Shown here one piece after another: positions 2,328-23,121 of a stretch of 23,121 bases of DNA. The DNA is from a virus: IMG/VR virus record IMGVR_UViG_3300031977_001569, positions 1 through 23,121 of that record; one strand, written 5' to 3'. The notes below the pieces were generated by a model. The model saw nothing but the letters and a program-made list of their open reading frames with translations. It searched no databases and was not told the DNA's origin. Each line of letters starts with the position of its first letter. Within the stretch, counting starts at the first letter, position 1. The translations under genes and the position numbers were made by a program.

Positions 2328-3041
2328 TTAATCTTGGTCTGGATCAGCAAAGTTTTTTGTTAAATTTTTAAAGAAACCACCTTCTCCACCTACAAGACCA
2401 CCTAACGCAATACCACTAGCGCTACCTAATGCACTAGCAAAACCAGCTTGTGAAGCTTGTCTAGCTTGTAACATCTGCGCTTGAGCATTATCTAATAACG
2501 CAGCAGATCTATCTTCATCTCTAAACTGTCTAGCTTCTGTCATTTGTTGTGTAAACGATGTACCTCTTATTTTTAATGCGTCAGCTTGTGCGCCTATTTG
2601 CGCTCTTGCTACCTCAGCTCTTTGTTGACCTTGTGCTCTTAACTGCTGAGCTTGTATTTCTTGTTTTTCAATATTAGCAGATATACCTCTTTTACTTTTT
2701 AATGCTGCTTGAGCTAAAGCTGTGGCGCCACCAGCACCCGCACCTGTAGCTCTAAGAGTATCTAGTGTGTTAGCTAAACTAATGTCAGCTTCTTCTGCTT
2801 GAAACTCTGAAGCTTGCGTTGCAACACCAATGTTTGCAAATGGGTTTGTTATATCGCTAGATCTATCTTTAGCTAAATTACCAAGATTATTTAAAGCTTG
2901 CCTTTGACCTTTCAAGTTACTGAAAGCTCTTTCTGCATCTTTATATCTGTCTTCTGCAGCTGCCGCTCTTTTCTTAGCGCCGAAACCTTGTATTAAGCCG
3001 CCTACTATATTAGTAGCAGCTCCTATTAAAGCCATGCTCAT
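2328..3041 (-). CDS. Ala/Gln-rich helical protein, candidate internal virion protein
   Basis: This 237-residue protein has an amphipathic or hydrophobic N-terminus (ALIGAATNIVGGLIQGFG, residues 4-21), a long Ala/Gln/Arg/Glu-rich helical centre (residues 22-195) and a Gly/Ala-rich C-terminal segment (ASALGSASGIALGGLVGGEG). Two short membrane-compatible segments flanking a helical core are typical of small podoviral internal or ejection proteins such as the T7 gp14 type, which line a channel in the host envelope. The analogy rests on composition and position, not on a recognised motif. The start could be the ATG at 3041 or the in-frame ATG at 3035; the first is used because the AT-rich leader fits both. 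It lies between the 444-aa tail protein and the 693-aa helical protein. Confidence 0.7.
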   Translation of the reverse strand: MSMALIGAATNIVGGLIQGFGAKKRAAAAEDRYKDAERAFSNLKGQRQALNNLGNLAKDRSSDITNPFANIGVATQASEFQAEEADISLANTLDTLRATGAGAGGATALAQAALKSKRGISANIEKQEIQAQQLRAQGQQRAEVARAQIGAQADALKIRGTSFTQQMTEARQFRDEDRSAALLDNAQAQMLQARQASQAGFASALGSASGIALGGLVGGEGGFFKNLTKNFADPDQD

Positions 3042-3056
3042 ATTACTATAATTTTA

Positions 3057-4391
3057 TTAGACAGTAACTTCTCCATTAACTGAAAATAATTCAGCCTTTG
3101 AATCATTGGAACTTTCATTAGGTTCCCAGTACTGCATTGTTATGTTTGAAAAATATCCTTTTAAACCAGATGTTTGAAAATGGCTGTTGTCTTGATAAAA
3201 ATCAACCGCCTTATTTCTTAATTCACTGTAGTAAAAACCTTCTTTTTTAATAAAGCCTACAGTTTCACCTGTTCCTATTGTTGTACCTTCTTTAGGTATC
3301 TCATATGCTGTGTTAAGATCATCGTAACTATTTGATGCTCCGTAAACAGCGTAACCACCTGTTGAAAAATTAGTCATATTCCAACCAGTAGTTCCCTCGT
3401 AATCAAGGGTTAAAAATGTTTTGACTGATGATGGTTCCATGTTAAATAGAAGTTTAACATATGATGGATCGTTAAATGATGCGTCATAAAAATTACATCT
3501 TGCAACCGTTTCGTCATGTTGTCTGTATAAGTTTGATAAGTGATATGTGTAAAACTCATTTTTTAAACTTACACCGTGTGTTGCTTTGTATGTATAAAAA
3601 CTAACCCAGCCACTAGCTCTCTCGTCAAATGCCAATGTGCCATAAGTTGTTACGTCGGCTGTTGCTGATGCGCTAGATGCTATTACACCTCCATCAACAC
3701 CTGTTCCTTCTAATGTTATAACATATTGTTTCTTTTGTTCATCAAATGCTCCATATATAGTATCACACACTTTTAGGTTATCTTTAAACCAGTCTTTCAT
3801 ACCAGCGTCTGATATAGGAGTTATACCATCTGTTGATAATCTACATACAACGCCTCTTTGCTTATCTGCAAAGTATTTTCTGTTACCAAAGTATGCAAAA
3901 CTTTCAGGGTTTTTGCCAATACCATATTTACCAGAATAAGGAGTTATTTGTCCTATAACGTTAGCGCCTGACGCTGTTATAGCTTGTCCTTCAGCTGTAA
4001 ATATAGCGTCTTTATCTATTAAAGCTCTATTAACTTTATTCTCTTGAAATATATTTAAATTAGTGTCTTCAGCGTGTAGTTTTTGTACACTACCATTATT
4101 TATATCAACAGCTCTTGTTATTGATTGACCTGATGGAAATTGATTCAATTCATTAACAGTAGTTCTAGCGTTGAATATACCACTGTATGTTAAAGCGTTT
4201 TTTCTTACCCTACTTTTATATTCTTCGTCTGTTATATGAGCTCTTGCACCAATATCCATTTGAATACCATTGTATTCACCTTTTATTCTATTTTCTTCAA
4301 TGTGATATACGCCAGGCGCTTCTGCTGTACCGCTTCTACCACCTTGTATTATTATGGCGTTTGAAAATGCTAATTCTATTACTGCTCCCAT
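3057..4391 (-). CDS. Tail/structural protein, companion of the long muzzle-like protein
   Basis: This 444-residue, beta-rich protein has no membrane segment. Its middle (FGNRKYFADKQRGVVCRLS, then DGITPISDAGMKDWF, around residues 165-205) and the later region around 250-290 (DERASGWVSFYTYKATHGVS) resemble, from memory, a propeller-like module found in structural proteins of marine and crAss-like phages, often near the C-terminus of one long tail or muzzle protein. Here that module sits in its own gene. The gene begins 9 nt after the stop of the 1373-aa gene, with the leader AAAATTAAAAT before ATG. The likely role is the distal part of the short tail, acting with its neighbour. Function is inferred and sequence search is needed to confirm the module. 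Confidence 0.65.
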   Translation of the reverse strand: MGAVIELAFSNAIIIQGGRSGTAEAPGVYHIEENRIKGEYNGIQMDIGARAHITDEEYKSRVRKNALTYSGIFNARTTVNELNQFPSGQSITRAVDINNGSVQKLHAEDTNLNIFQENKVNRALIDKDAIFTAEGQAITASGANVIGQITPYSGKYGIGKNPESFAYFGNRKYFADKQRGVVCRLSTDGITPISDAGMKDWFKDNLKVCDTIYGAFDEQKKQYVITLEGTGVDGGVIASSASATADVTTYGTLAFDERASGWVSFYTYKATHGVSLKNEFYTYHLSNLYRQHDETVARCNFYDASFNDPSYVKLLFNMEPSSVKTFLTLDYEGTTGWNMTNFSTGGYAVYGASNSYDDLNTAYEIPKEGTTIGTGETVGFIKKEGFYYSELRNKAVDFYQDNSHFQTSGLKGYFSNITMQYWEPNESSNDSKAELFSVNGEVTV

Positions 4392-4400
4392 ATTTTAATT

Positions 4401-7400
4401 TTATGCTATTGGACAATCATATGTGCTTGCTGATATAACTCCAGAGCTTGAAGTTGCATGTCTAGGATTCAAACCAGACACTGTAAATGTTCCTTCTGCT
4501 ACTGGATTATTTAATAATTTATCTGTATACACTATATTACCAGCGTTTACACCACCACTTTGACTAGGATCTGCTCCACCGCCACCACCAGTAGATGATT
4601 TAACATAATAAGTTGTAGCTGGTTGACTATATTTTATAGTACACACATTATTACTAGCTCCAGCTAAATAATGAGCATCTATAGCTACTGAAACTCTTGG
4701 AAATATTGTAAATGCTGTAGCGCTTACACCAGTTGGTGATGTTAAACCACCGTTATCCGTAAACACCACTTGTATTGCTTTTCCTGATATGTTATCACCA
4801 CCAAAGAAACCACTGAAAGTAAATGTATTATTTGTTCTTATTGAAAAAGTACCGTCTTGTCCAGCTGGATTAATATCAAACATACTAGCGTTTGTTCCAC
4901 TTAAAGCGGCTGTCATGCCTGTGTTATTTAATGCTGAGTTTGCAGATCCATTAACAGCTGTTATAGTACCTACTTGATAACCTTTTCCACCACTACCGTA
5001 AGTACTATGATTATCTATAAAACCATTAGCGTTAGTTCCAACAGGGTTACTATTTGCTACACTAACTGTTATTGTTTGTAGCGAAGAAGCATTATTACTT
5101 TGCGTTGCTCTTAATAAAATACTATAATCATCAGAACCGTCATTACTAAAACCAAATTGATGTCCTACTTTTAACATAAATCTAGGATCAATATTACCTG
5201 ACGCTCCAGCTTGTTCGTTAGTTATAGCTACTATATCATGATTAGCGTCTAACTGAACAACACATTGTCTTTGATTAGTAATATTTGTTGAGTAATTATC
5301 ATAAAACCATATTTTATAAAAACCAGCACCAGTATTAGCTATTGATGAAATATTAGTTGCTTCATTTGTAAGATTAGTACCTTCTGATGACAATGCTAAA
5401 AGCTCTGTGTATTTAAATCTAGCCGTGATAACGCCAGGATTAGTCAATGTTAAATCAATAGCGTTAGCAGCGCTTGCTGTAGACTGTTTAGCAGAGTGTT
5501 TAACTACTGTAATATCATCTTCTTGATCAATTTCAAACTTACCTAAATCAGTACCATCAGTTTCATCATTATTTGTAACAGACATTAATTGAAAGTTTGA
5601 TATAGTATAACCTTGACTTGTTGGGTCATCTACAGTTGCTGTTAATTCACCAATTTGTTTTTCTAATTTACTATTATTTGTATAATCAAAACTTTCTGGA
5701 AAATTAGCTGTCAAAGCTGCTGTATAAGTATCTTTTTCAGCTGTATCTGTTATTTTTATATTAGTTGGTCCAGAAGAAGCTGCTTCGCACTGGTCATTTA
5801 AATCAGGCACAGTACCACACGTTGCTGTTTCATAATATATATCTAAATTTGATTGAAAAGGTTTTGTTTCAAAAACAGTTAAACCTTTGTCTTTAGCTTT
5901 TGGATAACCAAATGGTCTATCATTATTTGCATCATCTGCCGCGACAATAAGGTCACTTTCTTGAGTAAACTCACCGGTTACATTTACTATTTCATTATCT
6001 AAGTTTGGTAATTCAGCTACTGTTGGATTTTTCTCTGCATCGTGTAGAAAATCATATACTCTTTCTCTATCTGGTAAGCTTCTAGGTATAAAAGCTCCGT
6101 CTGTAAAAGGTCCGTTTTTAGCATTAGATATACTAAATAAACCTTGTGACTTAGCATCGCCAATACTTATAACATCAATATACTCCTGACCATCAACACC
6201 CATTTTAGAATCAAAATGATTACTAACTGCGGTTGCTTGAGTTCCATCGTTTATTTGTACAACTTTAGGATATAATTGTACTTCTGAACCAGCTGTACCA
6301 TCTTTAAACTCATCAATATCTTTTACAGATCTAGGTACTTTATTTATATTATCACCCGTTAAACTAAACCATGATCTTGATTTTGATGTTTGGTTAAATT
6401 GACCAGCGATTACTTGATCTTGATCATCAGCATGATTATTTGGGTTAGTTGTTACAGTTTTACCAGCTGTAACTGACCAGTTATTCATTGGGTGCTGAGT
6501 ATAAACGTTATAATATTCTTGCTCTGTTTGTTTAATTACAACTTTCCACGAGAACCAACCATTTGGATTATCTTCATAATGATGTGTATTTGTGCTTGGC
6601 ACTATTCTAGAGTCTTGAAAATCTACATTTAAAGCTTTACCATATGTTTTAAATGTATTTTCCCAGCTGCCATCTGTATTAGCGTTATATGGATCGGTTT
6701 CAGCTACTACTGTATGTGTATCAGATAAGTCATCAGTTTTATAAGTTGATGGTATTACCGGTGACATTCTACCATATCTATCACACAATACTACACCTGC
6801 TTGATAAGTTCTTCTTTGTTTTACAGTGTGAAACCTATGCGATTGTGTGTTGTAATAAAAATGACCACTTGTAACTCCTTTTTCTACATTACCTTTGTTA
6901 TCGCTTGATAAAAAGAAGCTTATACCTCTATTACCAGCTTCATCGTTGGGTATATCATAACCTAATGTTATATTTCCATAAACTATTCTATTACCAACTA
7001 TTTCTTGAGCTTTTGCTCTAACTGGAACATCGTCAGCAACTCTTATTAATTGTTTTTCTGGTAAAACTTTAAATGGTTCTTTTGCTTTATATGTATAATC
7101 TATAGCTGTTCTATAATAAGTAGCACCAGCTTTTGGTGTTACTGTATAATTACTAAAAGGTCTTGTTGATTCGTTGTTAGCAGCATCAATATTTATAGTA
7201 TCTACAAGCTTAACAGATAAGCCGTTTGATTCTTTTAGTAATATTTCTACATCTTTTATTCTTAAACCTTTATCATTATTATAACCATTGTTTACTACAT
7301 CAACGTTGCCACTATCAGTTTCAAACTCTGTAACAACAAATGAATCGTTTACACTTGGTAAAGGTATACGCATTATAACTTTATCATAAGCGTTTTGCAT

Positions 7401-8522
7401 TATAGGAAGAATACCTGTTTCAACAACATTTTGTGAAGATATATTTACTTTAGGCTCGTTTGTAGTTGCGTTTACAGATGTGTCAGGAGAAAATTTAAGC
7501 ACACCAGCATTTAAAGGTTTAAATACAGGTTGTGTAAATGGTGATATTATAGAATACGTACCGTCTTTATATTTATATCTATATGCAAATCTAATAAATC
7601 TTTCTTGCATATAATCAGACTTAACGCCTATATTAGAATTTGGATTAGATGTAATTAATGTTTGACCATCAGCTGTATTAGGATAAGCAGTTAATGTTAT
7701 CGTAGCATTACCACCGCTACCTGTTATTGTTAATACATCACCTACGCTGTAACCATAACCTACGTCGTCTGGTGATATTGTAACTGCTGTTACAACACCA
7801 GCGTTAACAGTTGTTATATTTACTTTTAAGCCAGTACCAGTTCCACCTGTGGTTACTAAGTCGTTAGCTACAGAATAACCAGTTCCACCAGCAGTTACAT
7901 TAGCAGTAGCTTCAATTATGTTTGGCTTATTTAACATTGGTGCTAAATATGGTGCTACTTTTGCAACTGATATTTTTTCTTCTTGTGCGTCTACATAATA
8001 AGTTGTATTATTTCTAGCTAAGTCTACATCTATAACTCTTGGTGAGTTGTAGTTATCTGTAAAATATAAATAATTACCTATCGTATTTACACCTGTTATA
8101 GGATGTGTTTTTGTAAAATTTAAATACAAGCCTGATGCTAAAACCTCTTCAGCGTTGTTACCTTCTTTAATTACAACTTTCATCCTATGCTTGTTTGAAT
8201 TTTGTTTCGCCCTCTGCATATTATGTATATCTGCATTTGGAGTTGTACTTGTGCATGAAGTTGTAAACCAAAATATTCTATCGTTAGAAACATCTACATA
8301 AGAACCTATTGTAACTACATCTATAGCGTTGCCTTCATCTAGAACTTCTTGAGTTGTAAGTTTTTTATTACCTCTAATATTTTCAATAGCTCCAACGTCT
8401 GAACCTTCACTTGTAGCTATAGATATATTTTGAGCTTCTCTATATTCACCACCCGGAACGAGTCTTTCGTCCAGATCTTTATTCATACGAGCTTTAGTAA
8501 AAATATTTTTTATTTTTGGCAT
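4401..8522 (-). CDS. Very long tail/muzzle-like structural protein with beta domains
   Basis: This is the longest gene in the window at 1373 residues. The N-terminus (MPKIKNIFTKARMNKDLDER followed by LVPGGEYREAQNISIATSEG) is a pattern I associate with large structural proteins of marine phages. In crAss-like phages a protein of similar size forms the tail muzzle. Residues about 204-281 form a separate Gly/Thr/Val-rich beta module (GGTGYSV, GYGYSVGDVLTITGSGG) that looks inserted. Roughly the last 400 residues are Thr/Ser/Asn-rich, with Ig- or cadherin-like stretches (VVFTDNGGLTSP) suited to surface exposure, ending in a Gly-rich linker and a short terminal segment. It starts 3 nt after the preceding gene (TAG TAC ATG). 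Tail assignment is fairly safe; the muzzle role is inference. Confidence 0.75.
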   Translation of the reverse strand: MPKIKNIFTKARMNKDLDERLVPGGEYREAQNISIATSEGSDVGAIENIRGNKKLTTQEVLDEGNAIDVVTIGSYVDVSNDRIFWFTTSCTSTTPNADIHNMQRAKQNSNKHRMKVVIKEGNNAEEVLASGLYLNFTKTHPITGVNTIGNYLYFTDNYNSPRVIDVDLARNNTTYYVDAQEEKISVAKVAPYLAPMLNKPNIIEATANVTAGGTGYSVANDLVTTGGTGTGLKVNITTVNAGVVTAVTISPDDVGYGYSVGDVLTITGSGGNATITLTAYPNTADGQTLITSNPNSNIGVKSDYMQERFIRFAYRYKYKDGTYSIISPFTQPVFKPLNAGVLKFSPDTSVNATTNEPKVNISSQNVVETGILPIMQNAYDKVIMRIPLPSVNDSFVVTEFETDSGNVDVVNNGYNNDKGLRIKDVEILLKESNGLSVKLVDTINIDAANNESTRPFSNYTVTPKAGATYYRTAIDYTYKAKEPFKVLPEKQLIRVADDVPVRAKAQEIVGNRIVYGNITLGYDIPNDEAGNRGISFFLSSDNKGNVEKGVTSGHFYYNTQSHRFHTVKQRRTYQAGVVLCDRYGRMSPVIPSTYKTDDLSDTHTVVAETDPYNANTDGSWENTFKTYGKALNVDFQDSRIVPSTNTHHYEDNPNGWFSWKVVIKQTEQEYYNVYTQHPMNNWSVTAGKTVTTNPNNHADDQDQVIAGQFNQTSKSRSWFSLTGDNINKVPRSVKDIDEFKDGTAGSEVQLYPKVVQINDGTQATAVSNHFDSKMGVDGQEYIDVISIGDAKSQGLFSISNAKNGPFTDGAFIPRSLPDRERVYDFLHDAEKNPTVAELPNLDNEIVNVTGEFTQESDLIVAADDANNDRPFGYPKAKDKGLTVFETKPFQSNLDIYYETATCGTVPDLNDQCEAASSGPTNIKITDTAEKDTYTAALTANFPESFDYTNNSKLEKQIGELTATVDDPTSQGYTISNFQLMSVTNNDETDGTDLGKFEIDQEDDITVVKHSAKQSTASAANAIDLTLTNPGVITARFKYTELLALSSEGTNLTNEATNISSIANTGAGFYKIWFYDNYSTNITNQRQCVVQLDANHDIVAITNEQAGASGNIDPRFMLKVGHQFGFSNDGSDDYSILLRATQSNNASSLQTITVSVANSNPVGTNANGFIDNHSTYGSGGKGYQVGTITAVNGSANSALNNTGMTAALSGTNASMFDINPAGQDGTFSIRTNNTFTFSGFFGGDNISGKAIQVVFTDNGGLTSPTGVSATAFTIFPRVSVAIDAHYLAGASNNVCTIKYSQPATTYYVKSSTGGGGGADPSQSGGVNAGNIVYTDKLLNNPVAEGTFTVSGLNPRHATSSSGVISASTYDCPIA

Positions 8523-14394: not shown

Positions 14395-16815
14395 TTATCT
14401 TGGTTCAAATTGTTCTAAATCAAATCCACCAAGATTATCAAAGCCTTTTGACTCAAATTTCTCAGCTGGTAGATCTTTTTTTCTTTGTTCAATCATTCTA
14501 GACTGTTGACTAGCTTGTATTCTAGTACGTTCATCTTTACGATCTTCTTTATATTGCTCTTTATCTTTAATCACTTGTGAATCCATGTCTTTTAATCTCA
14601 TATTCAAATTAAACTCATGTTCCATAAGTTCTTTCTTAATTTCAGCTTCTCTTTCCATTTTTTGAGTACCAAACTGAAACTCTGCTTGAGCTAACTGAAC
14701 TTTTTGCTCAGTGATTATTTGATTTTTCTGTGCTTCAGCTTGCGCTGCTTGTTCAGCGGCTTGAGCGTTTGCTTGAGCTTGAGCTTGTATATTTTGTTGA
14801 GATATTTGTTGATCTAGCTCCGTCTTTTTTCTTTTTCTTAGTTTTAATACTTGATTAGCTAATTTTAAATTTCTAACTTCTCTAATATCAATAGCATCTT
14901 CTAAGTTTATTTGTTGTTGTTGAAGAGCCATTTGTATATTGTTTTCTAATCTCTGTTTTTCTTCTTCATCAGGTGATAGTTCTAAAAATATACCAAAGTC
15001 ATGCAAATGTAATTCTTTAACTTGGTCTAAATTAACAACGTTAAATCTACCTAAAGATAAAACAAATTGATTTTTAGTCTTAGAATATTCTAATACATCA
15101 GATATTCTTAACGAACAAGCTTCAGCTGTTTTTAATGTTAAATATAAACCAGCTTGCAATATATGTCTTGTAGCTGTATTACTATTTGCCGCAGCAATTT
15201 TTTGTAAACCAACTAATGAAGCTTTATCTGGAACACTACCGTCTCTAGCTTCATTAAGCCCAGTCACATCTCTTATCATTTGTAAATAATAATTGTAAGA
15301 CTGTATTAAAGCATTTATTTTAGCATTACCACCTGATGACTGTAGTTCTTGTATTGGAATACGACCATTGTTAAAATCACCATCTTGCGTCATTGATCTA
15401 CCAATTATACTACCAGTTTGGAAATACATGTTTAATGCTTCTTGTGGATTATAATTAGTACCATTACCTAAATCTATTTCAGCTAAACCATCAGCATCTA
15501 AAAATACACCGTCTGGCACAGTTCTTGATAATACTTGTTGCAGCTTTAAATGTGTCAACTGTATCATATCAGCAAAAGTCATCATACGACTAACTAATGA
15601 CTCAGGTCTTCCTTTGTACATTCTAGGCGCTACTATATTATAACTCATAGCAACCTTAGTAATATCAGACTTAGGTCTAGTCATGTTTTCACATTTCTTC
15701 CAGTCTAACATTATATCAAAGTTTAATATTTTTGCTCCTGAGTATAAAACCTCAATAGCTCTTTCTGCTTTATCAAATCTTGATCTACCATCTTTTGGTG
15801 GATTAAACGTATCGTCTTTTTCTAAAGCTTTATCAGCACCAGATGCTGTTTGTTTTATTTTAAAAGTTTGTTTATTAAAAGTTTTGTATTCAAAATAAAG
15901 TATATTTACATAACCTTTGTCAGAAGCGTCTTCTGGGTAATAAATATATTTATCGTTATTTTGATTTGAATACTTATCTTCTAAGTCTTTTATTTGTTCT
16001 GATGTTAAATCAGGATATTCTTTTATAAGATCTTTTAGTAACACTCTTTTTACTTCACCAACATAATATAAGTCCTCAAAATAAGGATCATCACTATATG
16101 AATAAACTATATTAGCAGGATCTACGTAATCAATTTTTATACCTTCAGCTGTATTAAAACTATTTTTAAGACAAGCTATTCCTAAAACAGTTAAATCATA
16201 ATCAGCTCTTTTCTTTACAAAATCGTATTTATTTAAAGCCATTACGTTATCTAAAGCTTCTTCTTCTGCTATTTCAATAGACTGCTTATAATTTAATTGC
16301 ATGTGAACAGAAAGCTCTTCATCATTTTGAGGTATCTCTTCTTGTTTGTTTTTAAATGAGTTTACACCAGTTTGTGCTTGAACAGCAACTTTAAATGATT
16401 TAAACTTCATATCTTCTTGCATATCCTTTATATAGTCTGTTCTATCTTGAGCAGATACAGGGTCTATTGAAAATGCTTTTATATCGTAAGTTCTTTCTTG
16501 TATTCCGTTTACAACAATATCAACAAATTTTGGTATAATAGGAACAGGCTTCCAGTCTAAATTAAGATAAGACAAATCACCGTTAATAGATAATTCATCT
16601 TTATATTTTTGAATAGATTGCTCTCCTCTTGCATATAATCTTAGTTCGTGGTATTTTTGCTGAGTGTCATAGTAACGATCTGTACCACGGTCACTTTTAA
16701 ACCACTCTTGCTCTATAGCTTGAGCAACCTGCTTGCCATATTCCATGCTAGACTTCTCTAAATCAGGCACTGCCTGACTTGGGAAACTAGATTTTTTTAC
16801 TTTTGTTTTAATCAT
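14395..16815 (-). CDS. Portal protein
   Basis: This 806-residue protein follows the large terminase with an 8-nt overlap, the standard place for the portal. The N-terminal region (to about residue 120) is helical and charged. The central part includes DYDLTVLGIACLKNSFNTAE and KIDYVDPANIVYSYSDDPYF (around residues 205-245), text typical of portal wing and core regions. A helical stretch follows (RMMTFADMIQLTHLKLQQVL, around residues 408-428). Residues about 625-780 form a long Gln/Ala/Lys/Glu-rich coiled coil, the portal barrel or an internal extension. Its length is close to crAss-like portals (about 800 aa, from memory) and above many siphophage portals. The dodecamer would dock the terminase and the connector ring. 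Confidence is high from context. Confidence 0.85.
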   Translation of the reverse strand: MIKTKVKKSSFPSQAVPDLEKSSMEYGKQVAQAIEQEWFKSDRGTDRYYDTQQKYHELRLYARGEQSIQKYKDELSINGDLSYLNLDWKPVPIIPKFVDIVVNGIQERTYDIKAFSIDPVSAQDRTDYIKDMQEDMKFKSFKVAVQAQTGVNSFKNKQEEIPQNDEELSVHMQLNYKQSIEIAEEEALDNVMALNKYDFVKKRADYDLTVLGIACLKNSFNTAEGIKIDYVDPANIVYSYSDDPYFEDLYYVGEVKRVLLKDLIKEYPDLTSEQIKDLEDKYSNQNNDKYIYYPEDASDKGYVNILYFEYKTFNKQTFKIKQTASGADKALEKDDTFNPPKDGRSRFDKAERAIEVLYSGAKILNFDIMLDWKKCENMTRPKSDITKVAMSYNIVAPRMYKGRPESLVSRMMTFADMIQLTHLKLQQVLSRTVPDGVFLDADGLAEIDLGNGTNYNPQEALNMYFQTGSIIGRSMTQDGDFNNGRIPIQELQSSGGNAKINALIQSYNYYLQMIRDVTGLNEARDGSVPDKASLVGLQKIAAANSNTATRHILQAGLYLTLKTAEACSLRISDVLEYSKTKNQFVLSLGRFNVVNLDQVKELHLHDFGIFLELSPDEEEKQRLENNIQMALQQQQINLEDAIDIREVRNLKLANQVLKLRKRKKTELDQQISQQNIQAQAQANAQAAEQAAQAEAQKNQIITEQKVQLAQAEFQFGTQKMEREAEIKKELMEHEFNLNMRLKDMDSQVIKDKEQYKEDRKDERTRIQASQQSRMIEQRKKDLPAEKFESKGFDNLGGFDLEQFEPR

Positions 16816-19018
16816 TATTTATCATTTTTGATAACATACCTTTATTGTTATATTTTGAAAAACCAAAATTTAATTTTGAATTTTCTTTTAGTGGACTAGG
16901 TCTATATAAATTTTTATTACAAGCCATTATAGCTAAACCCGAACTAATAGCAGCATCAAACTTTGTTCTGTTATTAATATCAAATCTAGCCCAATCATTT
17001 AAAGTTTCATTAAATGATATATTACCATATTGTCCTTCTTGTGTTAAACCCACGTGTTGCTGTATATAACTTTCAATAGCTGCAGCATGAGCCTGCTTGA
17101 TGTCTTCACTAGAGTTAGGTATTCCACCTACCTCTTTTTCAGCTGTTGATAATTTGTTCCATATTTTATCAGGTCTGTTCATTGAATAACCTCTATAACC
17201 TCTACGCTTTAAATAATATAAAAGCCTTGGTTTGTTATTTTCTGCAAGTAACGGCATGCCATAAAATACTAATGCCATTAATACATCTTCAAAAAACATT
17301 TCAGCTGTTTCTGGTCTTGCTACATATTCTAAAAAAAATGTATTAGGTGGTGCATCTTCCATGCTAAACTTAGTTAGCCCGTGCAAAGCACCTTTAGAAC
17401 CTCTTTTATCTACTGTTCCTGATATATCATAACTATCACAACCAAAAGCACCTATATGCTCATTTGCTGGTAGTTTTTTACCATTTTTTAATATGTATCT
17501 ATTTTGCAAGTTCATTGGTGGTACCCAAGATAAATTAAACCTACCGTTTTGATCTGGATAAAATCTAACATTTGTATCTTTAATACCGTTTTCCCAAACA
17601 AAACTACCTTTTATAGGTTTTGCTTGCGTTTCATTATAGTCTATTTGTTCGTATATTTTTACTAAATTAAATATACTACTTTTAGTTTCATCTCTGAAAG
17701 CATGTTCTTCAGTTCTTGGAAACTGTCTATAATATTCATTTAAAGCGTCTTGATCATTTTTTAACCCATCCGCTTCATTTTGCCAGTGCGAAATAACTCC
17801 AGTATCAATGACATCATTATGAGGACCGTATACTTCTGTTTCTGGATTTTCAAATACAGGTATCCCGTATTCATCAATAAAACCTTCATAGTTCCACTCC
17901 ATTGGAATAAAAAAAGAGTACAGACCCGAATTAGTTTGGCCATTTCTGTTTCGTTTAGTAACATCTGAATTATAATATAACTTTTTAAAATTACCACCAC
18001 CTTTGTCTAACGCGTTACACGTTGATCCCATCATACATTTTCCTATAATTCTACTACCTAATCGTAAAGTAGTTTTAGTTACACGCCAGTTATTTAATAT
18101 ATTATCTGGTCTTTCCCATTTACCAGATTCATCATGTACTAGTAATTTAAGCTTTTCACCATCATAACTGTTATCACCTGTGTTTTTCCAGTCTATTGTT
18201 GTATCAAGACCTGTTAATTGTTCAGGTTTATCGTTGCTTGTTATTTTTCTTCTTGTAAGCTTTGAAGCTGGTACTCTATAAGCTAACTCTGTTTTTGGTC
18301 GATCCATACCGTCTTGAATCGGTTTAAAGAAAAAAGGATAATTAACTGATATAGGTACAACTTTATCTGTAAACATCTTTTTAGCATCAGCACCAGACTT
18401 AGATAATATACCAAATCTTGCATCTGATGATATTGTAGCTAAGTTAACTGTTTCGCCAGAAGCCATGAAAGAAAAACCAGATCGTCTGTTTTTTAAATAA
18501 CACATACCGTAACATCTGTTATCTGCTTTACAAGCTTCCCAAAATATAAAAAACAATCTATTTGCTTCTCTAAAATCAGGCTTACCTACATCTATTTTAG
18601 ACCACTGAAGATACATATAATGAGTACCGCTAATATAAGTAGCAACACTCTTGTTATAAAACCAAAAACCTTCATCTCTTCTTTTAAACTCATCTTCTAT
18701 GTAGTCTATATATTTTTCTTTGAAATTAGCAGGATAATCTCTCCAGTCAAATATTGTTTTTATTTGATTTAATTCTTTTGGGTATGGAGTTACCTGCCAT
18801 TTATTTTTTTCAAACTTATGTACTTTAGCTGGTTGTTTAGGTAATGCTATTTTAAGGTTTTGTATTTCGTAAACATCACCTATAGTGCCATCTTTAGATA
18901 TAACAACAACATCGTGTTCTTTATTATATCCATACTTCCATTTCTTACCTTTATTTAATCTTTTGATAGTATTTTCACGTATAGGTTTTATAACCTTGCA
19001 TAAACCTTGAGAATACAT
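16808..19018 (-). CDS. terL: Large terminase subunit (TerL)
   Basis: This 736-residue protein contains both terminase activities. The ATPase domain has a divergent Walker A (KNRRSGFS, residues 176-183), Walker B with catalytic Glu (LLVHDE, D296 and E297) and a coupling motif (GKCMMGSTCN, around 326-335). The C-terminal RNase H-like nuclease shows a first acidic site at GCDSYD (D528 and D531) and later candidate metal-binding residues in FFEDVL and in RFDINNRTKFDAAI near 678-691. The Walker A lacks a standard GKT/GKS and has R-R-x-G-x-S, a variant common in large terminases. The ATG overlaps the upstream stop by one base (TAATG), and the stop overlaps the portal start by 8 nt. It would pump and cut concatemeric DNA at the portal. 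Confidence 0.92.
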   Translation of the reverse strand: MYSQGLCKVIKPIRENTIKRLNKGKKWKYGYNKEHDVVVISKDGTIGDVYEIQNLKIALPKQPAKVHKFEKNKWQVTPYPKELNQIKTIFDWRDYPANFKEKYIDYIEDEFKRRDEGFWFYNKSVATYISGTHYMYLQWSKIDVGKPDFREANRLFFIFWEACKADNRCYGMCYLKNRRSGFSFMASGETVNLATISSDARFGILSKSGADAKKMFTDKVVPISVNYPFFFKPIQDGMDRPKTELAYRVPASKLTRRKITSNDKPEQLTGLDTTIDWKNTGDNSYDGEKLKLLVHDESGKWERPDNILNNWRVTKTTLRLGSRIIGKCMMGSTCNALDKGGGNFKKLYYNSDVTKRNRNGQTNSGLYSFFIPMEWNYEGFIDEYGIPVFENPETEVYGPHNDVIDTGVISHWQNEADGLKNDQDALNEYYRQFPRTEEHAFRDETKSSIFNLVKIYEQIDYNETQAKPIKGSFVWENGIKDTNVRFYPDQNGRFNLSWVPPMNLQNRYILKNGKKLPANEHIGAFGCDSYDISGTVDKRGSKGALHGLTKFSMEDAPPNTFFLEYVARPETAEMFFEDVLMALVFYGMPLLAENNKPRLLYYLKRRGYRGYSMNRPDKIWNKLSTAEKEVGGIPNSSEDIKQAHAAAIESYIQQHVGLTQEGQYGNISFNETLNDWARFDINNRTKFDAAISSGLAIMACNKNLYRPSPLKENSKLNFGFSKYNNKGMLSKMINND

Positions 19019-20269: not shown

Positions 20270-20299
20270 TTTATATTATCACGCAATTGTCACGCTTTT
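20270..20299 (-). promoter_or_regulatory. Candidate promoter for the packaging/head operon
   Basis: On the minus strand, AAAAGCGT (20299-20292) is followed after 16 bases by TATAAA (20275-20270). The same pairing with the same spacing occurs at 21245-21216 in the only other gap near here. The octamer overlaps the stop codon of the upstream gene. The TATAAA box has a plausible -10 placement, while AAGCGT does not match TTGACA, so a phage-specific or diverged factor is possible. A direct repeat GCGTGA is also present (20296-20291 and 20285-20280). Confidence 0.45.
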
Positions 20300-21192
20300 T
20301 ACTTCTTTTTTGGTTCAGCTATAAACCAGTCTTTGTACATTTCTCGTTTTTTAAGTATGTATTCTAAGTATTTATCTATTTTTTCTTTCCAATTTTTGTC
20401 TACAGCTGGGTTTATAATACCAGACTTTGGACTTGAAAAACATTTATTGATATAATTCTTAATATCATGCTGATTATCAAGCAAATGATTGTTAATACAG
20501 TAAAAAGATCCCATTTGTATGTTATTCCAAACATCAATAGGTTCTATTTTTTTACCTAAAACAGCCGCATATATCATGCTTTCACTAATGTGAGTTGTAT
20601 ATACGTTATTTGCTTTTTGCAGATAATAATACATATCTATATCCCTTGGTAATATATTGCTATCGCCAAAAAAGTCCTTTAATTCACCAATAATTTGATG
20701 TGTTGTTATAGGATGTGGCTTAAAATACATGTTATTACCATGTTTATTTGCTAAAAATTTTAATCTATTCAAGCAAATATTAGATTTTACTTTATTTGAA
20801 CCAGGTAATATAACAATATTATCTTTCGGTTTGTATTGATCAAACTTAGAGTTCCTATCTTGATACTTATTTGCGTTTTTACTCATAACATTTTCAATCA
20901 AATAAGATGAGTAATCAACAACTTCGCAGTCGTCAGCGTAAGCGTCAATCATTTGAGCATACCTAAGCTTTGTGTTTAAAGGTTGCATGTAAAAACTAGT
21001 AGCAAACTCAGTGTATGCTAAAGTTTTAAAATAAGGCATTTCATCAGCCATAACGTCATAGCTAAACTCAATACCAGCCTCAGTACATTTTCTTATAAAG
21101 TATCCTTCTACTTGTTCTAAATCTTCAAGTTTTTTATTTTTTTTGAGATGGCCAATTCTTTTGTCCAACTCACGTCTGTTAAACATTTCCAT
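20299..21192 (-). CDS. GT-B glycosyltransferase-like (capsule/polysaccharide type) protein
   Basis: This 297-residue soluble protein has an N-terminal helical domain followed by a GT-B-like C-terminal half: a strand and loop ILPGSNK (residues 128-134), YFKPHP (156-161) and YTTHISESMIYAAVLGKKIE (198-217). A KPHP motif followed about 40 residues later by an S/T-rich loop, a helix and GK is the donor-site layout of capsule-polysaccharide (KpsS/KpsC-like) and CDP-glycerol or sialyl transferases. The substrate is unknown. It stands alone between two promoter-like elements, like a moron gene, and directly follows the Thr/Ser/Asn repeat protein. It might modify virion proteins or host surface glycans. 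Assignment is tentative; I see no complete family signature, and the protein is short for a two-domain GT-B enzyme. Confidence 0.5.
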   Translation of the reverse strand: MEMFNRRELDKRIGHLKKNKKLEDLEQVEGYFIRKCTEAGIEFSYDVMADEMPYFKTLAYTEFATSFYMQPLNTKLRYAQMIDAYADDCEVVDYSSYLIENVMSKNANKYQDRNSKFDQYKPKDNIVILPGSNKVKSNICLNRLKFLANKHGNNMYFKPHPITTHQIIGELKDFFGDSNILPRDIDMYYYLQKANNVYTTHISESMIYAAVLGKKIEPIDVWNNIQMGSFYCINNHLLDNQHDIKNYINKCFSSPKSGIINPAVDKNWKEKIDKYLEYILKKREMYKDWFIAEPKKK

Positions 21193-21245: not shown

Positions 21246-23121
21246 CTACCTTTCAAACGATACGTCACCTAATTGACCGTAATTACCAGGATCACCGTCA
21301 TACCAGTTTGTATTAGTTTCAAATGTAGTAGTAGTACTCGTATTAAACACTGTAGTTGTGTTAAATGTTGTAGTTGTACTTCTTGTAGTGTTAAAAGTTG
21401 TGGTTGTAGCAGTACTTGTACTAAACGTAGTTGTGGTACTTCTTGTAGTATTAAACGTAGTTGTAGTATTTTTTGATGTACTAACTGTTGTAGTTTTACT
21501 AGTGTTAAAAGTAGTACTTGTAGTTGTGTTAAAAGTCGTAGTCGTATTAGTACTAGTGTTATAAGTAGTAGTTGTAGACTTAGTTGTATTGAAAGTAGTC
21601 GTTGTACTCTTACTTGTACTAACAGTTGTTGTTCTACTAGTATTAAATGTCGTAGTTGTAGCGGTATTAAACGTGGTAGTAGTGTTAGTACTCGTATTAA
21701 ATACCGTTGTCGTGCTCTTAGACGTGTTAAATACTGTAGTTGTGCTCTTAGATGTACTAACCGTAGTCGTTCTACTTGTGTTAAACGTTGTAGTAGTACT
21801 AGTATTAAACGTTGTTGTAGTCGCAGTACTAGTATTGAAAGTTGTAGACGTTGATCTAGTAGTATTAAATGTAGTCGTTGTTGATCTAGATGTACTTACC
21901 GTAGTAGTACGGCTCGTGTTAAACGTAGTTGTTGTACTAGTATTAAATGTAGTGGTTGTACTCTTAGACGTATTATAAACAGTGGTAGTTGACTTACTTG
22001 TAGATACTGTAGTAGTTTTAGACGTATTAAACGTAGTCGTAGTAGACGTATTAAATGTAGTCGTTGTACTTTTAGATGTATTATAAACAGTAGTAGTTGA
22101 CTTATTTGTAGACACCGTTGTAGCTCTAGATGTGTTAAACGTAGTTGTGGTAGATGTATTAAACGTAGTAGTTGTTGACTTACTAGTATTGTATGTAGTA
22201 GTTGTGTTTCTACTAGTTGATACCGTGGTTGTACGACTAGTATTAAACGTAGTAGTAGTGCTAGTATTAAAAGTTGTCGTAGTGCTCTTACTAGTATTAA
22301 ATGTAGTTGTAGTATTTCTAGACGTTGAAACGGTTGTAGTTCTACTTGTATTAAACGTTGTTAATGTTGTTGTGTTAAACGTGGTAGTCGTCGACTTACT
22401 TGTATTAAACGTTGTTGTAGTGTTTCTACTAGTGCTAACAGTTGTAGTACGACTAGTATTAAACGTAGTTGTCGTAGAGGTATTATACACAGTAACTGTT
22501 GCTGTACTAGTATTAAAAGTAGTTGTTGTAGACTTAGTAGTATTAAACGTAGTTTCAGTTGTTCTAGTAGTACTAACAGTTGTTGTTCTACTAGTGTTAA
22601 ATGTTGTTAATGTTGTTGTGTTAAACGTTGTCGTGGTAGACTTAGTAGTGTTATACGTAGTTGTAGTTGATCTACTAGTACTAATAGTTGTTGCTCTACT
22701 TGTTGATGTAGTTGTACTAGTATTAAACGTTGTAGTCGTATTTTTACTAGTATTAAACGTAGTTGTTGTGTTAAACGTAGTCAACGTAGTAGTATTAAAT
22801 GTAGTGGTAGTACTTCTACTAGTGCTAACAGTAGTGTTTCTTGACTCAATTGTACTTTTACTCGTGTTAAACGTAGTTGTTGTATTAGTACTAGTGTTAT
22901 AAGTTGTATTTCTACTAGTTTGCGTAGTTGTACTAGTATTAAACGTTGTAGTCGTGTTATATGCTGTAATTGTATTAAACGTAGTAGTTGTATTAAATGT
23001 CGTAGTTGTGTTAAACGTAGTAGTTGTATTTGTACTAGTATTGTAAAACGTTGTTGTGTTAGTAGCTGTACTAGTATTGTAACTAGTCAATCTACTTGTA
23101 GCAGTTGCGAAAGTAGTAGTA
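21246..23121 (-). CDS. Thr/Ser/Asn repeat protein, probable fibre or surface protein (5' end beyond the right edge)
   Basis: The frame is open to the right edge. An in-frame TTG at 23090 is not a convincing start because the same repeat text (TTTFATATSR) continues upstream, so the true N-terminus is outside. At least 624 residues are present. Almost all consist of 8- and 10-residue units such as STTTTFNTSK, TTTFNTSR and TTTVSTSR, with an aromatic or Val residue at a fixed place. The last 20 residues are unique (NWYDGDPGNYGQLGDVSFER). There is no membrane segment or enzymatic motif. Regular hydrophobic spacing suggests a fibrous beta structure, perhaps a tail fibre or head fibre shaft; a disordered mucin-like protein is the alternative. 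It precedes a glycosyltransferase-like gene. Function is inferred from composition only. Confidence 0.75.
   Translation of the reverse strand, partial: TTTFATATSRLTSYNTSTATNTTTFYNTSTNTTTTFNTTTTFNTTTTFNTITAYNTTTTFNTSTTTQTSRNTTYNTSTNTTTTFNTSKSTIESRNTTVSTSRSTTTTFNTTTLTTFNTTTTFNTSKNTTTTFNTSTTTSTSRATTISTSRSTTTTYNTTKSTTTTFNTTTLTTFNTSRTTTVSTTRTTETTFNTTKSTTTTFNTSTATVTVYNTSTTTTFNTSRTTTVSTSRNTTTTFNTSKSTTTTFNTTTLTTFNTSRTTTVSTSRNTTTTFNTSKSTTTTFNTSTTTTFNTSRTTTVSTSRNTTTTYNTSKSTTTTFNTSTTTTFNTSRATTVSTNKSTTTVYNTSKSTTTTFNTSTTTTFNTSKTTTVSTSKSTTTVYNTSKSTTTTFNTSTTTTFNTSRTTTVSTSRSTTTTFNTTRSTSTTFNTSTATTTTFNTSTTTTFNTSRTTTVSTSKSTTTVFNTSKSTTTVFNTSTNTTTTFNTATTTTFNTSRTTTVSTSKSTTTTFNTTKSTTTTYNTSTNTTTTFNTTTSTTFNTSKTTTVSTSKNTTTTFNTTRSTTTTFSTSTATTTTFNTTRSTTTTFNTTTVFNTSTTTTFETNTNWYDGDPGNYGQLGDVSFER
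21309..23121 (-). repeat. Protein-level repeat array with 36/46-residue higher-order units
   Basis: The basic units are 10 residues (STTTTFNTSK type) and 8 residues (TTTFNTSR, TTTVSTSR). In the middle they combine in the order 10+10+8+8, giving a 36-residue (108-base) super-unit repeated at least five times in a row. The three units nearest the C-terminus gain an extra 10-mer and become 46 residues. The TTVSTSR-like marker occurs 12 times. Toward the N-terminus the order becomes irregular. At DNA level the copies differ strongly in codon choice, so this is a coding repeat and not a simple satellite. Confidence 0.85.

Follow-up and report, generated by a model that had tools for sequence, protein, structure and literature searches.

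KpsC and KpsS are β-Kdo transferases that use CMP-Kdo, and T4 gp5 is a triple β-helix built on an octapeptide repeat. Tail fibres and glycosylated repeat adhesins are both known already. In the crAss-like phage crAss001 the tail fibre gp22 is trimeric and docked through a short N-terminal segment (PMC10172136). In the serine-rich repeat glycoprotein adhesins with GtfA/GtfB, which have been reviewed (PMC6973325), a long Thr/Ser repeat protein is accompanied by a dedicated, adjacent glycosyltransferase gene.

The locus described here has the same arrangement as these adhesins, but it is phage-encoded, its repeat follows a strict two-residue parity and the partner is related to KpsC/KpsS, not to GtfA/B. 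No accessory Sec, cell-wall anchor or GtfA/B was seen in the neighbourhood, whether in the window or in relatives. We have not found a phage Thr-repeat fibre with a dedicated KpsC-like partner described before: the combination is absent from the profile libraries and the open-access literature that were searched, and the latter contained nothing relevant on glycosylated phage fibres.

The window and its repeat protein

The window, by which we mean the whole stretch of DNA analysed, is a 23.1-kb virus fragment. Matches to crAss-type families were obtained for its terminase, portal, capsid and muzzle genes, and the presence of a muzzle C-terminal domain together with the crAss-type order of terminase, portal and major capsid protein (MCP) genes places it among the marine crAss-like phages. 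The families phrog_6681, phrog_6547, phrog_13704 and phrog_14478 were all matched, in the same gene order as in the Flavobacterium elemo phage; the isolates closest to it have Flavobacterium and Cellulophaga as hosts. The features of concern are as follows.

3057..4391, minus strand: muzzle C-terminal domain gene (context; crAss-like marker; Pfam crAss_MUZ_C, 29.1 bits, cut-off 27)
14395..16815, minus strand: portal protein (context; phrog_6547)
16808..19018, minus strand: terminase large subunit (context; phrog_6681, E = 2.7e-170)
20299..21192, minus strand: phrog_26179 protein of 297 aa; putative glycosyltransferase distantly resembling KpsC/KpsS (Capsule_synth), and conserved partner of the repeat (profile comparison)
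21246..23120, minus strand: ORF-B, a repeat protein rich in Thr, Ser and Asn; 624 aa visible, the 5' end lying beyond the contig edge (two-residue parity 253/254)
21249..21320, minus strand: non-repeat C-terminal tail of ORF-B, ETNTNWYDGDPGNYGQLGDVSFER (25 relatives all keep one Trp and one Arg)
21393..21944, minus strand: zone of 46-residue super-units, 8+8+10+10+10 (autocorrelation; TRF period 138)
21945..22622, minus strand: zone of 36-residue super-units, 8+8+10+10 (autocorrelation; TRF period 108)
22623..23120, minus strand: N-terminal part of the array, less regular, with units of 6, 10, 12 and 14 (unit splitting)

ORF-B runs past the contig end, so that the window holds a C-terminal fragment of the protein. 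Full-length relatives have ~740-820 aa, and compared with those of 814 aa the window copy is short by the first ~190 residues. One near relative (L095) is such a whole protein of 814 aa, starting MPNTTTVFGT, in which no folded N-terminal domain is apparent. Among the 624 residues seen there are 319 Thr, 87 Ser and 67 Asn (76% T/S/N) and four Gly, all of the latter within the C-terminal tail. The tail itself is short, with the motif WYDGD..GQLGDVSFER, and the shaft is a single low-complexity Thr repeat.

Cutting after each aromatic residue or Val, so that units end in F, Y or V, yields 31 units of 10 residues, 21 of 8, six of 6 and a few longer ones, ordered into five to six super-units of 36 residues followed by four of 46. 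Autocorrelation is highest at lags of 36, 72 and 46 (0.55-0.58); the base identity is 0.32, and shuffled sequences do not exceed 0.39. A sequence-only reading of this DNA had proposed the ORF and its 8- and 10-residue units, each with one aromatic or Val, and translation and unit splitting agree with it; autocorrelation and the TRF periods of 108 and 138 likewise recover its 36-residue super-unit (10+10+8+8), later lengthened to 46 by an additional 10-mer. The regular nested periodicity that it described holds for the 36- and 46-residue zones and is less marked in the N-terminal quarter, with its units of 6, 10, 12 and 14. It had escaped that reading that every unit length is even.

T4 gp5 resembles ORF-B in being a phage tail protein with 8-residue units, but the ORF-B repeat has no Gly and mixes units of 6, 8, 10, 12 and 14. 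The absence of Gly rules out a gp5-type triple β-helix of VxGxxxxx octapeptides. Searches of Pfam, PHROGs and PDB sequences with the repeat protein gave no match and neither did tblastn of the repeat against phage records, the latter probably because of low-complexity masking. Relatives were gathered by a pattern scan and by composition combined with parity.

A two-residue alternation

Not only are all units of ORF-B even in length, but the spacing from aromatic to aromatic is even in 51 of 53 cases. More generally, residues of the set [FYWRKH] occupy one parity and those of [NSAGD] the other at 253 of 254 informative positions over 598 aa, with zero slips, Thr occurring on both. The mean for shuffled sequences is 60% (maximum 69%), and the window's other proteins score 54-61%. 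The rule extends to far longer relatives, with a parity of 98.1% over 3,295 residues and zero slips in L115 and of 97.6% over 2,615 residues with one slip in L170, while the collagen-like GTSGTNG repeats of L162, a negative control, score 52%.

The larger periods are much less constant. Depending on the relative they measure 36, 46, 48, 94, 96, 22 or 58 residues, the leading autocorrelation lags listed all being even, and the copy number and order of super-units vary even between close relatives. The 36- and 46-residue super-units are thus lineage-specific and the two-residue alternation is the conserved rule: tandem amplification has shaped the super-unit, and selection maintains the alternation. 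The super-unit as a structural coil was ruled out on the same grounds, since the periods differ among relatives and have only their evenness in common. Comparison of eight 36-aa super-units, 70% identical as DNA, gave a pS of 0.67, far above the pN of 0.175, so it is the protein that is conserved. Together with the parity, this excludes chance or an antisense artefact as the source of the repeat.

For the last 300 residues AlphaFold2 (AF2) reached a pLDDT of 34.5 with a 25-sequence alignment; in single-sequence mode the regular 36-mer zone was predicted as all-β with a pLDDT of 61.0 and a pTM of 0.57, with four strands of 5-7 residues per 36 residues, lying on STTTTF/TTTTF, and short TS[RKT] turns between them. 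As evidence for a β-solenoid these models are all-β with low-to-middling pLDDT (34.5 and 61.0), and the coil period varies between relatives. Foldseek comparison of the AF2 model found nothing significant in the PDB (best E 2.8) or in BFVD (best E 0.04, to unnamed or uncharacterised proteins).

An alternative is that the repeat has no specific structure and serves as a disordered, low-complexity spacer or is a by-product of repeat expansion. The low AF2 confidence obtained with an alignment, the 76% T/S/N composition and the rapid shifts in copy number between close relatives would all fit. Against this, the parity is unbroken over 598 to ~3,300 residues, pN is well below pS and the single-sequence AF2 model is all-β. 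Unbroken parity combined with pN below pS points to selection on alternating side chains, as in β-strands, and we regard the disordered spacer as very improbable. A β-structure is likely on the basis of the models, and the alternation would presumably reflect the need of a β-strand for two different faces. Whatever its exact fold, the parity rule offers a simple and extreme β-type sequence for structural work.

Relatives and tail context

Thr repeats of similar type occur in many marine viral contigs, and tailed phages of crAss-like, T4-like and other kinds encode similar repeat proteins, the isolates KVP40, Lullwater and DLP6 among them. The only match in bacterial genome contigs was to a prophage-like SAR92 locus with terminase- and capsid-type genes, and a bacterial origin of the repeat was rejected on that ground.

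The closest relatives have two repeat ORFs in tandem, ORF-A, with the start M[KR]WLWN[KR]IDFWNT, and ORF-B, the homologue of the window protein, and just upstream they encode a protein with tail-fibre-like sequence (NLVVTGDLTVSGDT). The paralogous ORF-A carries a C-terminal Peptidase_S74 domain, an intramolecular chaperone, in several relatives (23.1, 22.1 and 29.1 bits in L108, L161 and L167, respectively; cut-off 22). Furthermore, the repeat module lies upstream of the terminase, and relatives lacking the repeat have Peptidase_S74 proteins of 1,733-1,850 aa there. ORF-B thus shares its genomic locus with Peptidase_S74 tail fibres, but differs from them in having only a short tail, and Pfam gave no Peptidase_S74 match on the window protein. 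T4-like phages, with the Stenotrophomonas isolate DLP6 among them, carry the repeat as a fusion with a baseplate-wedge (gp7) domain. Short versions are present in two isolates, as gp41 of Caulobacter phage Lullwater, directly after an annotated tail-fibre gene, and as KVP40.0254.

It is because these several independent genomic contexts agree that we consider ORF-B a likely tail fibre. The fibre shaft suggested from the sequence alone gains support in particular from the S74 locus upstream of the terminase, the S74 domain of ORF-A and the gp7 fusion. By analogy with gp22 of crAss001, also a crAss-like phage, one might guess that the conserved short N-terminal peptide of ORF-A docks the fibre. 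No virion proteomics or glycan data for the repeat protein were found in the open-access literature, nor mass spectrometry or adsorption data in the accessible text of the DLP6 paper.

Two relatives carry intein-like sequence. Between the two repeat ORFs of L095 (4458-5510) is a methyltransferase-like protein with a C-terminal Hint/intein-looking stretch (weak Pfam matches to Methyltransf_25 and PT-HINT), and a Thr-repeat ORF at L162:7791-11426 has a C-terminal Hint/intein-like domain, with ILTHNRKC near its end and weak Pfam matches.

A conserved partner gene

Directly downstream of ORF-B in the window lies a gene of family phrog_26179, annotated 'unknown function' in PHROGs. The sequence-only reading described the repeat protein but overlooked this glycosyltransferase-like partner. 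The same family is found behind the repeat in very different phages, with members as low as ~20% identical. In a set of loci assembled using the repeat alone, phrog_26179 is directly downstream in 31 of 40 distinct testable cases (L200 and L211 being from the contigs of L139 and L140), and eight of the nine repeat loci without it are T4-like baseplate arrays. In most T4-like fusions phrog_26179 is elsewhere or outside the contig (in DLP6 and the L157 contig it occupies another genome position), a point against the two genes forming a module. Starting instead from phrog_26179, a parity-type repeat ORF ends at most 600 nt upstream in 59 of 80 loci, a set seeded with repeat neighbours and so partly biased; counted by 70%-identity clusters, the repeat is upstream in 15 of 16 that are testable.

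Podo-, sipho- and myophage backgrounds all contain the pair, which in group I is separated by 57-111 nt. Of 37 close terminase relatives whose upstream sequence is long enough, one has both the repeat and phrog_26179 and 36 have neither: the two are gained or lost together. T4-like phage phiM12, whose gp7 has no repeat, has no phrog_26179 either.

As an exception to the pairing, Caulobacter phage Cr30 (L194, L287, L288) has phrog_26179 and, in the genome stretches read, no parity-type repeat ORF. It also carries heptose kinase, phosphoheptose isomerase and epimerase genes (heptose nucleotide-sugar), and is perhaps a heptose version of the system. In group II loci (L249:10833-11546 and similar) the 3' end of phrog_26179 is overlapped or directly followed by a further gene. 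Its products, of 209-321 aa, fall into several families with no convincing Pfam match and may be a second enzyme of the cassette.

Relationship of phrog_26179 to KpsC and KpsS

Positions invariant in phrog_26179 comprise YD, KY, L.G.N, K.HP, SE, K and G. The weak Pfam match most widely shared by its members is Capsule_synth (four of 37 members, best E 0.022); none passed the curated cut-off of this or any other glycosyltransferase family, and PDB searches with phrog_26179 profiles gave no significant match. Against Capsule_synth proteins from genomes of the SAR92 host's class, hhalign gave a probability of 82.8% for the KpsC-type, 85.3% for the KpsS-type and 89.6% for all, with E-values of 2e-6 to 9e-6 for these single comparisons, and six unrelated control families scored below 1%. 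The alignments superpose the K.HP and S..G..A..GK motifs of phrog_26179 and Capsule_synth, and the KpsC-type protein of the comparison set matches solved KpsC structures (6MGB, 6MGC, 6MGD, 8FUW).

Given the profile homology, the aligned motifs and the chemistry of KpsC/KpsS, the most probable identity of phrog_26179 is that of a GT-B glycosyltransferase using a CMP-activated acid sugar, an assignment that we keep as putative. While sharing homology and both motifs with KpsC/KpsS (PF05159), it differs in being a single ~300-aa domain that falls below the Pfam cut-off, and it adjoins a repeat fibre gene instead of lying in a capsule locus.

Fibre-then-chaperone is a common phage gene order, and such an order, with the tight 57-111 nt spacing of group I, would fit a phrog_26179 that is no longer catalytic and is needed, as an assembly factor or chaperone specific to the fibre, to fold or trimerise the Thr repeat. 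Such a role would not account for the homology to Capsule_synth, nor for the conservation of donor-site-type K.HP, SE and GK motifs across members only ~20% identical, nor for the nucleotide-sugar genes of several repeat-bearing genomes (see below), and we think it unlikely.

Kdo genes and a model for the locus

KDO-8-P synthase was found above the curated cut-off in six repeat-bearing contigs, namely G001 (L095), the closest near-complete relative of the window phage, G002 (L103), G003 (L125), L115, L137 and L170. It was present in none of 18 comparison records, which include two incomplete repeat-bearing ones (L004, L083) and some others that are fragments. The synthase gene immediately follows phrog_26179 in L115 and L170. 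In G001-G003 it is instead clustered, away from the repeat locus, with a CTP_transf_3 cytidylyltransferase (79 bits in G001) that scores 57-69 bits with the KdsB model, below the cut-off of 155; the cluster further encodes a GT-A-like protein and, on a weak match of 13 bits, a GT29-like one, and both of these are common to L170, at 37-40% identity. Many other repeat-bearing contigs lack Kdo genes; Gram-negative hosts produce CMP-Kdo of their own. In the Kdo cluster (L282, L283, L284) a JmjC_2 oxygenase and a small cupin lie beside apparent ribonucleotide reductase genes.

On balance we slightly favour a model in which ORF-B is a tail-fibre shaft whose Thr/Ser array is glycosylated by the neighbouring phrog_26179. 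In this marine crAss-like phage ORF-B would form the shaft of a tail fibre or of a similar tail appendage, and nearly all of the shaft would be a β-type Thr repeat alternating every two residues: one face would carry the aromatics together with Arg and Lys, the opposite face Asn, Ser and Ala, and Thr would occur on either. The repeat and phrog_26179 would then be a two-gene module for building and modifying the fibre, the enzyme acting inside the cell, ahead of virion assembly, to transfer Kdo or a related acid sugar, also CMP-activated, onto Thr/Ser hydroxyls. With hundreds of Thr/Ser acceptors, the product might be a stiff, hydrated, mucin-like fibre with an acid-sugar coat. Presence in the virion, the trimeric state, glycosylation and the identity of the sugar are here things that we infer, and it is speculation that the coat could stiffen and protect the fibre and prevent sticking. 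Counting against the model are the scores of phrog_26179 below every curated glycosyltransferase cut-off, the many repeat-bearing contigs lacking Kdo genes, the case of Cr30 and the low AF2 confidence.

In the main rival reading the shaft is a tail fibre but phrog_26179 acts on some other target, for example on host surface glycans so as to exclude other phages. KpsC and KpsS themselves act on a lipid acceptor, the Kdo cluster of G001-G003 is elsewhere than the repeat locus, and Kdo genes could serve a change of the host surface. Fibre and enzyme would on that account adjoin as one host-interaction cassette, swapped together, and phage sugar genes have indeed been proposed to alter host surfaces (PMC5332604). 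What speaks against it is that phrog_26179 is tied to the repeat and not to fibres generally, S74-fibre relatives having none at the same locus, and that the pair recurs across podo-, sipho- and myophage backgrounds. We consider action on host glycans doubtful, if less so than a chaperone.

Returning to glycosylation of the fibre, its extension beyond this phage is more tentative, and we would rate it a little short of an even chance: an exchangeable cassette in many unrelated tailed phages, pairing a Thr-repeat shaft with a dedicated glycosyltransferase of Kdo type (phrog_26179), in some cases alongside CMP-Kdo made by the phage, may give rise to acid-sugar-coated, mucin-like fibres. Tail fibres set host range, and this large class goes unnoticed in routine annotation, since Thr repeats are passed over by low-complexity filters and profile libraries. 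If the partner does glycosylate the repeat, phages would own mucin-like glycoproteins with a dedicated transferase and a family of 'unknown function' would become a testable enzyme; were glycosylation shown, a categorically new virion part is possible. The isolates KVP40, Lullwater and DLP6 make the system testable now.

Other features of the window

The crAss muzzle gene (3057-8522, minus strand) is divided into two ORFs of 1373 and 444 aa, with a stop and a short gap between them. The split is kept in the relative G001 (L309, 3180-7298 and 7308-8657); in the elemo phage the muzzle is a single ORF of 1,470 aa. The protein encoded at 2328-3041 (237 aa) lacks ~110 extra C-terminal residues present in its G001 homologue (L309:8664-9707), whose LDVEFKQI end is like the ends of S74-bearing ORFs. 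The difference is possibly due to gain or loss of a Peptidase_S74 domain.
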